32,677 bases of DNA from Nocardioidaceae bacterium. GTDB lineage: Bacteria; Actinomycetota; Actinomycetes; Propionibacteriales; Nocardioidaceae. Every line of letters begins with the position of its first letter. Positions within the stretch are counted from its first letter, which is position 1. Both the position numbers and the translations under genes were made by a program. The DNA is taken from the NCBI GenBank assembly GCA_029268205.1, contig JAJUGK010000009.1:1-32677 (forward strand), given 5' to 3'. Below are positions 6,623 through 25,279 of this stretch, one piece after another. The notes beneath the pieces are model-generated. The model searched no databases, had not been told where the DNA came from, and worked only from the letters and a program-made list of their open reading frames with translations.

Positions 6623-7627
6623 TCAACGCACCCGGCGGACGGCGACGGGCTCCACGACGCCGAAGCCGCGCAGCGGCCGCGCCGGCAGCGTCCGACTGGA
6701 GAACAGGTCGCCGGGGAGCACCGCGGCGGTGTCGGGGGCGACGATCACCCGGTTGCGCCGCGCGACGGCGGTCAACCGGGCCGCCAGGTTGACCGGCGGG
6801 CCGAACACGTCGCCCAGCCGCTGGGTGACGGTGCCGGAGGCCAGGCCGACGCGCACGTCGGGCAGCCGCTTGTCGCGGCCGATCACCTGGACGATGTCCT
6901 CGGCGATGTGGACGCCGGTGACCGGGTCCTCGGCGACGAAGAGCACCGAGTCGCCGATGCTCTTGATCACTCGGCCGCGCCGGCTGGCGACCACGTCGGT
7001 GCAGCGCGTCTCGAACACCTCGACCAGGTCGCCGATCTCGTCCTGGTTGAGCTGGTTCGACAGCGCGGTGAAGCCGACCAGGTCGGCGAAGCCGACGGTG
7101 ACCTCGGCGAGGTGCAACTCGCTGCCCGGGGTCTCCAGCGCCTCCAGCCGGCCGACGGCCACAGCGAGATGGCGCCGCCAGGCGTAGACCAGCAGTTCCT
7201 CGAAGGTGGGGCCGACGCGCTCGACCAGGTCGAGCGCGCCCTCGACCAGCTGCTCGGGTCCGCGCTGGAGCCGGCCGAGCTCCTCGACCCGGGTGCTCAG
7301 CGTCGCGACCTGCCAGTCGGCGAGCTTGCCCATCGTCTGGCCCAGGGCCCGGGTCAGCTGGACGGCGGTGTCGAGGTCGATCAGGTCGTCGCCGACGGCG
7401 GCGGTGATCAGCCCGAGCGCCTGGGCGTCGGCGGCCGAGAACGCCGCCTCGTCGCCGGCGTCGGGGAAGCCGAGCGCCCGCCACAGCCGGCGCGCGACGG
7501 TCTCGTCGACACCGGCAGCCGCGGCGACCTCGCCGCTGGTGAGCGCGGTCCCGCTCTCCCCGAGCCCGAGGATCGCCCGGGCCAGCTGATCGCGGGTCGA
7601 CGGGCGGGATTGGTCGGCAGCAGCCAT
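6623..7627 (-). CDS. Class III adenylate/guanylate cyclase with N-terminal regulatory helices
   Basis: Predicted cyclic-nucleotide synthase of 334 residues, soluble (no membrane segment). The catalytic domain (about 172-330) has a full set of residues: metal-binding Asp182 (FADLVGFT) and Asp226 (SIGDSVLFV), base-selecting Lys222 (VIKSIGD) and Asp273 (GDVFGPPVN), and transition-state residues Asn280 and Arg284 (VNLAARL). Lys plus Asp at the selection positions favour ATP. The first ~165 residues include a helix-turn-helix-like segment (LTSGEVAAAAGVDETVARRL, about 30-49), resembling the regulatory N-terminus of mycobacterial Rv2212-type cyclases. The ATG is 4 bases after the PH gene stop, so the two are co-transcribed. 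The signal is unknown. Confidence 0.9.
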   Translation of the reverse strand: MAAADQSRPSTRDQLARAILGLGESGTALTSGEVAAAAGVDETVARRLWRALGFPDAGDEAAFSAADAQALGLITAAVGDDLIDLDTAVQLTRALGQTMGKLADWQVATLSTRVEELGRLQRGPEQLVEGALDLVERVGPTFEELLVYAWRRHLAVAVGRLEALETPGSELHLAEVTVGFADLVGFTALSNQLNQDEIGDLVEVFETRCTDVVASRRGRVIKSIGDSVLFVAEDPVTGVHIAEDIVQVIGRDKRLPDVRVGLASGTVTQRLGDVFGPPVNLAARLTAVARRNRVIVAPDTAAVLPGDLFSSRTLPARPLRGFGVVEPVAVRRVR

Positions 7628-20118: not shown

Positions 20119-20421
20119 ATGGCCCCGCAACCGCACATGCAGCCCAAGGGAAACAAGGCAGCCAAGATCCTCTACCGGCCGATCGGCCTGATCGGCGGCC
20201 TGGCCGGGGGGGTGCTCGCCGGCAAGGTGACCAAGTTGATCTGGCACCGGACCGCCGGTGAGGGCGACCCGCCGAAGTCCCTGGAGTCGGAGTACTCGCT
20301 GAAGGAGGTCATCGCCGCGGCGGCCCTCCAGGCGGCCGTCTTCGCGGTGGTGAAGACCGCGATCGACCGCGGCGGGGCGCGGATGTTCCAGCGCTGGACC
20401 GGGGAGTGGCCCGGCGACTGA
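20119..20421 (+). CDS. DUF4235 family membrane protein
   Basis: A 100-residue protein of the DUF4235 family: KILYRPIGLIGGLAGGVLAG, KVTKLIW, an acidic middle, LKEVIAAAALQAAVFAVVK, AIDRGGARMFQRWTGEWPGD. Two hydrophobic helices (about 19-36 and 60-78) suggest a small inner-membrane protein. Such proteins are common in actinobacteria and have no assigned function. It stands between the ABC operon and the LLM operon, 42 bases after the former. Confidence 0.88.
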   Translation: MAPQPHMQPKGNKAAKILYRPIGLIGGLAGGVLAGKVTKLIWHRTAGEGDPPKSLESEYSLKEVIAAAALQAAVFAVVKTAIDRGGARMFQRWTGEWPGD

Positions 20422-20452
20422 GGGTGACGCGCGCCACCTCCCCGCGCCGACT

Positions 20453-20471
20453 GTGACAGTGCTACTGTCAC
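20453..20471. promoter_or_regulatory. Perfect palindrome overlapping the LLM oxidoreductase promoter
   Basis: GTGACAGT (20453-20460), centre GCT, ACTGTCAC (20464-20471): a perfect 8+8 inverted repeat that ends 4 bases before the ATG. Size and symmetry are typical of TetR- or GntR-type operators. No regulator gene is adjacent. Confidence 0.6.
20463..20468 (+). promoter_or_regulatory. Candidate -10 box of the LLM/acyl-CoA dehydrogenase operon (leaderless)
   Basis: TACTGT ends 7 bases before the ATG at 20476 and is almost wholly inside the right arm of the palindrome. A repressor bound there would block polymerase. No ribosome binding site precedes the ATG. Confidence 0.5.
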
Positions 20472-20475
20472 GGTC

Positions 20476-21507
20476 ATGAAGATCTCGACGATGCTGCAGT
20501 ACGACGGCAACCCGCGGGCGGCTGCCGACCAGGTCGCCGCCTGGGAGAAGGCCGGACTCGACACCGTGTGGGTGGCCGAGGCCTACGGCTTCGACTCCCC
20601 CACCCTGATGGGCTATCTCGCGGCGCGCACCGAGACCGTCGAGATCGGCGCCGCGATCCTCAACATCTACTCGCGCACCCCCGGTACGCTCGCCCAGACC
20701 GCGGCCGGCCTCGACAACGTCAGCGGCGGTCGCGCGATCCTGGGGCTCGGCGCCTCCGGCCCGCAGGTGATCGAGGGCTGGCACGGCCTTCCCTACACCA
20801 AGCCGCTGGGCCGCACCCGCGAGGTCGTGGAGGTCGTGCGCGCGATGCTGCGCCGCGAGACGATCGAGTACTCCGGCAAGCACATCACCCTGCCGCTGCC
20901 CGCCGACCAGGGCACCGGCCTCGGCAAGCCGCTGAAGATGCTGACCAAGCCCGAGCGGTCGGCGGTGCCGATCTACATCGCTGCTCTGGGTGAGGCCAAC
21001 GTGCGGGCCACCGCGGAGTACGCCGACGGCTGGCTCCCGCACCTCTACGCCCCCGAGAAGGCCGACATCGCCTGGGGCGAGTCGCTGCGGGCCGGCACCG
21101 CGAAGCGGTCCGCCGACCTCGGTCCGCTCGAGGTCGTCGCCGGCGGCCTCGTGGCCATCGGCGAGGACGTGAAGTCGATGCTCGACTTCGCCCGCCCGAT
21201 CGTGGCGCTCTACGTCGGCGGGATGGGCGCGCGCAACAAGAACTTCTACAACGAGCTGGTCTGCCGGTACGGCTTCGAGCAGGAGGCCAAGGAGATCCAG
21301 GACCTCTACCTCGACGGTCACAAGCGCGACGCCGAGGCGAAGGTGCCGATGGAGCTGCTGGAGATGATCAACCTCGTCGGCCCCGCGTCCTACGTCCAGG
21401 AGCGGATCGCCGCCTTCCGCGAGTCCGGCGTCACCAGCCTGAACGTCATCCCGGCCAGCGAGGACCCCGCGGCCACGATCCGGCAGCTGAAGGAGTGGAC
21501 CGCGTGA
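20476..21507 (+). CDS. LLM-class F420-dependent oxidoreductase
   Basis: A 343-residue luciferase-like TIM-barrel oxidoreductase. Visible family parts: [20 protein letters not shown], the [20 protein letters not shown] strand-helix, [54 protein letters not shown] and ADGWLPHLY. Enzymes with this pattern in actinobacteria usually use F420 rather than FMN, in line with fbiC two genes on. The substrate is unknown. Coupling to an LCAD-like dehydrogenase by a 4-base stop/start overlap suggests an acyl-CoA or lipid-derived compound. It is probably the first gene of an operon under the palindrome upstream. Confidence 0.9.
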
Positions 21508-22649
21508 GCAGGCGAGCGATCTTCGACGACGAGCACGAGGCGTTCCGCCAGACCGTGCGCTCCTTCATCGAGAAGGAGATCACCCCCCACCACGAGGAGT
21601 GGGACGCCGCCGGGCAGGTGCCCCGCGAGCTCTGGACCAGGGCAGGCGAGCTCGGGATGCTCTGCTTCGACGTGCCCGAGGAGTACGGCGGTCCGGGCGT
21701 CGACGACTTCCGTTACAACGCGGTCGTGACCGAGGAGCTCTCCCGGGCGGGCGCGGGGGGCCCGGGGTTCCCGGTGCACAGCGACATCATCGTCCCCTAC
21801 CTCGTCTCGCTCGGCACCGACGAGCAGAAGCAACGCTGGCTGCCCGGCTGCGTGAGCGGCGAGACGATCACCGCGATCGCGATGACCGAGCCGGGGGCGG
21901 GCTCCGACCTGCAGGGCATCCGTACCCACGCCGCCGACAAGGGCGACCACTGGGTCCTCAACGGCTCGAAGACCTTCATCAGCAACGGCATCATGGCCGA
22001 CCTGGTCATCGTCGTCGCCCGCACCGACCCCGACGCGGGCGCCCGTGGCATCAGCCTGCTGGTCGTCGAGGCCGGGATGGAGGGCTTCGAGCGCGGCCGC
22101 AACCTCGACAAGGTCGGCCTCAAGGCCCAGGACACCGCCGAGCTGTTCTTCCACGACGTGATCGTGCCGAAGGAGAACACCCTCGGCGAGCCGGGCTCCG
22201 GCTTCATCTCGCTGATGCAGAACCTGCCGCAGGAGCGGCTCTCGATCGGCATCATCGCCGCGGCGGCGTGCGAGCGGGTGCTGGAGCTGTCGTTGGAGTA
22301 CGCCCGGGAGCGCGAGGCGTTCGGGCGCCCCATCGGCAAGTTCCAACACAACCGGTTCCTGCTGGCCGAGATGGCCACCGAGACCCACATCGCCCGCACC
22401 TTCATCGACGACTGCCTGGCCAAGCACCTGCGCGGCGAGCTCGACAGCACCCTGGCGTCGATGGCGAAGTACTGGACCACCGAGCTGCAGACCAAGCTCG
22501 TCGACCGTTCGGTGCAGCTGCACGGCGGCTACGGCTACATGATGGAGTACCCGATCGCGAAGGCCTTCATCGACAGCCGCATCCAGACGATCTACGGCGG
22601 CACCACGGAGATCCAGAAGGAGATCATCGGGCGCTCGCTCGGGATCTGA
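21504..22649 (+). CDS. Acyl-CoA dehydrogenase, long-chain (LCAD) type
   Basis: A 381-residue FAD enzyme that makes the alpha,beta double bond in acyl-CoA. Landmarks: [14 protein letters not shown] (FAD/substrate), [53 protein letters not shown] and the end [18 protein letters not shown]. In medium-chain enzymes the catalytic Glu sits at the YxGT position; here that is Gly, as in mammalian LCAD. The base is instead expected at Glu257 in AAACERVLE, which matches the LCAD helix-G glutamate. GTG 21504 is chosen for its 4-base overlap with the upstream stop; a GTG at 21495 is possible. The partner for electrons is not in the window. Confidence 0.93.

Positions 22650-22708: not shown

Positions 22709-25279
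<2,571 letters not shown>

Follow-up and report, generated by a model that had tools for sequence, protein, structure and literature searches.

MerR proteins usually sit in the spacer between the -35 and -10 promoter elements, which in their promoters usually measures 19-20 bp, and they classically activate transcription from such spacers. In Proteobacteria, the MerR-family regulator LiuR has been reported to govern branched-chain amino acid utilization (PMC5343134). In Mycobacterium, KstR is described as a lipid-degradation regulator with a palindromic operator lying partly over a -10 element and with autoregulation (PMC1995591). One MerR gene of N. simplex has been reported as induced by cortisone acetate, and the motif given with it, Acin3 (PMC7807495), is possibly a partial earlier sighting of the operator described below. 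Titles and abstract openings yielded no published account of this operator, most subscription journals lying outside the search, and a literature search combining MerR, fatty acid and TGACAGT found no paper.

Here we analyze a palindrome in a 32,677-nucleotide stretch of a Nocardioidaceae genome (the window). From sequence comparison we read it as the operator of a MerR-family factor that would control a lipid-catabolic regulon, and we put the probability of this reading at roughly 0.88.

A probable palindromic operator at the start of the LLM operon

The core of the operator is a perfect 8+3+8 palindrome, GTGACAGT-GCT-ACTGTCAC, at 20453-20471 (no strand assigned), delimited by its sequence and by its conservation before LLM orthologues and MerR genes. 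It extends to a 12+3+12 inverted repeat at 20449-20475 (likewise unstranded) with a single mismatched pair and arms that are 92% complementary; this repeat directly abuts the ATG at 20476. Conservation among regulon sites also includes the outer positions A(-4), C(-3) and T(+4). The first-pass annotation had called the palindrome perfect, and rightly so, but the span it gave, 20453-20475, takes in the four spacer bases that separate the end of the core from the ATG.

The right arm contains TACTGT (20463-20468, + strand), a probable -10 element by its position and by a comparison of registers among orthologues, with seven bases between it and the ATG. Transcription of the LLM gene is expected to begin at or beside the ATG, giving a leaderless message, on the strength of this position and the comparison across genomes. 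Because a sigma-70 consensus scan found no promoter-like site in 20380-20520, the -10 assignment rests on the between-genome comparison.

The gene behind the operator (20476-21507, + strand; 343 aa including the stop codon) encodes an F420-dependent LLM-class oxidoreductase of the Rv3520c subfamily, matching TIGR03559 with an E value of 8.1e-141, above the model cut-off. An acyl-CoA dehydrogenase gene follows (21504-22649, + strand), probably starting at GTG 21504 and sharing 4 bases with the end of the LLM frame, and the two belong to the same operon. The overlap of the reading frames is in line with the first-pass proposal that the operator is placed to control the LLM/acyl-CoA dehydrogenase pair. 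The upstream side of the operon carries a DUF4235 gene and two genes for ABC transporters. Directly downstream of the pair, at 22709-25279 (+), is a gene for a bifunctional CofGH, an enzyme of F420 precursor synthesis.

Conservation of the operator before LLM orthologues

The palindrome had originally been judged unlikely by chance. Taken as a lone 8+8 repeat this was weak evidence, since simple arithmetic gives about 0.5 perfect 8+8 repeats with a 3-base loop per 32 kb, but conservation of the sequence exceeds chance. With up to 3 mismatches the pattern occurs once in the window (0.07 expected; at least one occurrence in 7 of 100 shuffles), and the exact pattern occurs once in the 2.6-Mb assembly of the same genome, which is 81% complete. 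The core at up to 3 mismatches is not enriched in that assembly (15 occurrences versus 23 for the reversed control), so that only close matches are informative. At up to one mismatch, the core TGACAGTNNNACTGTCA was found 56 times in 58 genomes of the order, versus 9 times for the reversed control, and the exact core is present in 102 of 216 genomes of the family, where the reversed control is found in 1.

A site lies upstream of 12 of 13 close LLM orthologues and of none of 17 distant LLM proteins (44-50% identity). A broader set took in 114 of 135 matches, the other 21 being left out, and among the 114 three (L342, L345, L355) have poorly placed start codons. Here the site is exact in 30, within one mismatch in 71, within two in 90 and within three in 99. 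Permuted palindromes gave means of 0, 0.007, 0.07 and 0.87 at the same thresholds, with maxima of 0, 1, 3 and 31. Of the 24 orthologues without a site at up to 2 mismatches, 9 have one at 3. The distance from site to start codon ranges from 2 to 163 nt. Conservation before orthologous genes raises the palindrome above chance. Retention before 90 of the 114 orthologues agrees with the earlier view that it behaves as an operator, and the absence from orthologous promoters that had been named as grounds for giving up that view was looked for and is not the case.

Two further arrangements were seen upstream of LLM genes. In L055 and L057, two tandem operators overlap 14 bp apart, the second one in L057 having 3 mismatches. 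In seven relatives (L088, L094, L103, L107, L112, L126, L127) an NpdG-type F420 reductase gene is divergent from the LLM gene, and the two may share the operator region. A cluster adjoining LLM that had been considered a TetR candidate (cl4) is in fact this NpdG, an NADPH-dependent F420 reductase.

A MerR subfamily shares the operator

Relatives supplied 56 sites, 55 of them with at most one mismatch and one with two. A gene start lies within 150 bp of 48 of these; genes came from a home-made caller and distances are approximate. Genes recurring beside the sites encode CoA-transferase III, acyl-CoA dehydrogenases, thiolase, FadB, YrbE/Mce and LLM proteins. One recurrent neighbor cluster is a DNA-binding protein matching Pfam MerR_1 (E = 9.7e-22 and 4.5e-17 in relatives), and the MerR protein of the window's own genome matches the same family, an N-terminal winged helix-turn-helix, with E = 6.2e-18. 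Members of the MerR profile occur in 30 of the 58 genomes of the order. With sites counted at up to one mismatch, 26 of these 58 have both site and MerR, 4 the site only, 4 MerR only and 24 neither (Fisher p = 3.6e-8, uncorrected for kinship, so that related genomes overstate the independence of the counts).

The tie is also found when starting from the regulator. MerR loci were fetched from named genomes by protein profile alone, and the best 80 of 363 came mostly from Nocardioides and Marmoricola, with others from Pimelobacter, Pseudonocardia, Aeromicrobium and one Streptosporangiaceae. In 77 of these best 80 the operator (up to 2 mismatches; 23 exact) lies at the MerR start, within a range from 260 bp upstream to 45 bp inside the matched start, whereas permuted controls averaged 0.045 with a highest count of 3. 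The MerR gene stands head-to-head with a regulon gene in 71 of the same best 80 (the window-type acyl-CoA dehydrogenase in 53, yrbE in 12, thiolase in 3, LLM in 2 and a second dehydrogenase in 1), and in the other 9 no reference gene was found in this arrangement. An LLM gene falls within the locus stretch in 24 and NpdG in 22 of the best 80. An alignment of MerR loci (A2) covers 20 of an initial 26. The first-pass annotation had suggested searching for a divergently encoded TetR gene carrying the palindrome; in other genomes a regulator gene does carry it, but that regulator is MerR.

Other proteins were also noted near the sites. In five relatives the operator precedes the gene of a protein of about 290 aa (cl6; for example L105:3096-3995, minus strand), which had no Pfam or NCBIfam match in the one member checked. 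MPAB_Lcp_cat matches 2 of 69 neighbor proteins.

In the window's own genome, a relaxed consensus, TGACASYNNNRSTGTCA, at one mismatch returned 5 sites versus 1 for the reversed control. These are the window site before the LLM gene, a site on contig C171 just before a CoA-transferase III gene, one on C70 between divergent thiolase and MerR genes, one on C5 ahead of a MerR paralogue of more distant kinship, and an unexplained one on C58. The best candidate for the regulator acting at the window site is the C70 protein, a MerR of 251 aa (G000:C70:11948-12703, + strand) divergent from the thiolase gene; its own site is degenerate, with 3 mismatches to the core. Its position on another contig accords with the earlier expectation of a regulator encoded elsewhere in the genome. 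The paralogue on C5 is preceded by three successive TGACAG half-sites, just before 20577-20593 (L128). In the closely related genome G001 the operator accompanies two MerR paralogues, one beside thiolase and one beside yrbE (L402, L404), and cross-regulation between the two is possible. The window's own assembly, which is 81% complete, showed no paralogue with a link to yrbE/mce.

One operator in two promoter registers

Site-to-start distances in the 99 LLM orthologues with a site fall into distinct classes. Twelve share the window's distance of exactly 5 nt from site to start codon. Here T precedes ACTGT or its one variant in all 12 (TACTGT in 11), the operator covers the -10 in every member, and TTG at the -35 place is found in none, the window included. 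A distance of 10 or 11 nt is found in another 22, and all 22 have a fixed TTG and CAnnnT directly after the operator, with an 18-bp spacer; T precedes ACTGT in only 6. The two registers differ in TTG and in the T before ACTGT (Fisher p = 1.8e-9 and 3.7e-5, respectively, both uncorrected for kinship). The remaining sites lie at 2 nt (4) or at 22 nt or more, the leadered class (61). TACTGT was tried as a general -10 and rejected, T preceding ACTGT in only 15 of 30 one-sided sites; it holds for the 5-nt register. On these comparisons, one operator is used in two putative leaderless promoter registers.

In the window, a MerR dimer would lie over TACTGT, which is likely to be a leaderless promoter's -10, and would thereby block RNA polymerase, until a ligand derived from lipid, either a fatty acid or an acyl-CoA, released it from the operator. 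The regulon would comprise the LLM/acyl-CoA dehydrogenase operon, fadA-fadB and CoA-transferase III, to which relatives would add yrbE/mce and the regulator's own gene. Simple repression can explain both registers because a protein bound in the window's register must cover the -10, and our best guess for how the system works is that a lipid-derived signal relieves this repression.

An unlikely alternative is that the MerR protein is an activator, which on binding its ligand would distort a long spacer, the window's register being either activated in the same way or diverged and wired differently. The 10-11-nt register has much of what this calls for, with TTG 18 bp before CAnnnT in 22 of 22 cases and the operator in the spacer. 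That spacer, however, is 18 bp and not the usual 19-20, and the 5-nt register, with no TTG in any of its 12 members and its operator over the -10, is hard to fit to spacer distortion. The window promoter does not have this long-spacer layout, with the operator between -35 and -10 elements.

Other readings of the palindrome

The first-pass annotation attributed the palindrome to a TetR- or GntR-type repressor encoded elsewhere, which we now consider very improbable. Palindromes over a -10 are typical of such repressors, and KstR, of the TetR family, controls mycobacterial lipid genes through a motif that overlaps a -10 and of which one copy, given as positive for binding, is reported from the interval between Rv3520c and Rv3521 (PMC1995591). 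The KstR motif as given there, TnnAACnnGTTnnA, nevertheless differs from the window operator. The neighbors of the sites also speak against such a repressor. In a set of 69 of 70 neighbor proteins (130-300 aa, five main enzyme clusters excluded), MerR_1 matches 7, and the 25 commonest Pfam families, out of 84, include neither TetR nor GntR, so that either would have at most 2 members. The regulator with the palindrome in its own promoter is of the MerR family, the site preceding 77 of the best 80 of 363 MerR loci.

A chance palindrome or a structural element such as an RNA hairpin near the start codon, with no protein partner, can practically be dismissed: one 8+8 repeat in 32 kb is nothing unusual, but this sequence is specifically conserved before orthologues at distances of 2 to 163 nt with controls near zero, and it also precedes unrelated gene families.

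A possible lipid-sensing effector domain

The C-terminal part of the MerR protein was predicted with a pLDDT of 79. The closest solved fold to this predicted effector domain is the C-terminal domain of Rv1828, a MerR-family protein of M. tuberculosis (Z 6.5 over 118 residues, rmsd 4.2), and entries of the regulatory domain of Rv1264, an adenylyl cyclase of the same species, follow at Z 5.5-6.0 over 124-131 residues (rmsd 3.8-4.1). In a Foldseek search with the predicted domain, Rv1264 tops the list at E = 0.02. A sequence-profile comparison of the effector domain with the Rv1264 type gave a probability of 0.4, and a further profile search gave no match. The own-genome MerR has no match to Pfam Ad_Cy_reg, and when the MerR and cyclase profiles are compared at full length, the alignment is confined to the helix-turn-helix parts (probability 31). 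Rv1264 is reported to hold oleic acid between its domains, and oleate to activate the related Rv2212 (PMC12505454). With Z values below 8, kinship of the predicted effector domain to the oleate-binding domain of Rv1264 is a lead only, and a lipid ligand for the MerR protein is a reasoned guess. The window itself encodes an Rv1264-type adenylate cyclase at 6626-7627 (minus strand; Pfam Ad_Cy_reg, 1.3e-7, and Guanylate_cyc).

A fuller and more speculative picture, which we hold as tentative and rather doubtful, is that this undescribed MerR subfamily might let Nocardioidaceae and their relatives sense fatty acids or acyl-CoAs through an Rv1264-type oleate-binding effector domain. It would serve one lipid regulon through one operator in two registers, over a leaderless -10 or in an 18-bp spacer, orthologous genes having switched between them, and MerR would fill the role that KstR has at the Rv3520c locus of mycobacteria.

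Comparison with known regulatory systems

These results assign to an uncharacterized lipid-catabolic regulon of soil actinobacteria its regulator family, operator and genes; the hosts form a large group, with steroid degraders such as Pimelobacter (Nocardioides) simplex among its members. The pairing of the same regulator with an orthologous gene in two promoter geometries bears on whether MerR proteins repress, activate or do both, and should fatty acids prove to be ligands of the effector domain, the system would be a simple lipid-sensing switch.

LiuR, compared here by its description only, resembles the candidate regulator as a MerR-family regulator of acyl-CoA catabolic genes, but is proteobacterial and reported for branched-chain amino acids (PMC5343134). 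The likeness to KstR lies in the kind of operator, the autoregulation and the regulon, and in its reported motif next to Rv3520c, the namesake of the window's LLM subfamily, a tie made through TIGR03559 only; the difference lies in the protein, a TetR-family regulator, and in its reported operator, TnnAACnnGTTnnA (PMC1995591). Among MerR proteins, the DNA-binding domain resembles those of CueR, CadR and PbrR (Z about 10 over 70 residues), and the Bacillus megaterium MerR (4ua1/4ua2) matches in sequence with E down to 8.7e-13. No metal-sensor family reached its cut-off for the MerR proteins searched. Compared with the classical regulators CueR, CadR and PbrR, the candidate has a larger effector part, and the window operator lies over the -10 and not in the spacer. 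MerR regulons as such are known; what is unusual here is the promoter geometry.
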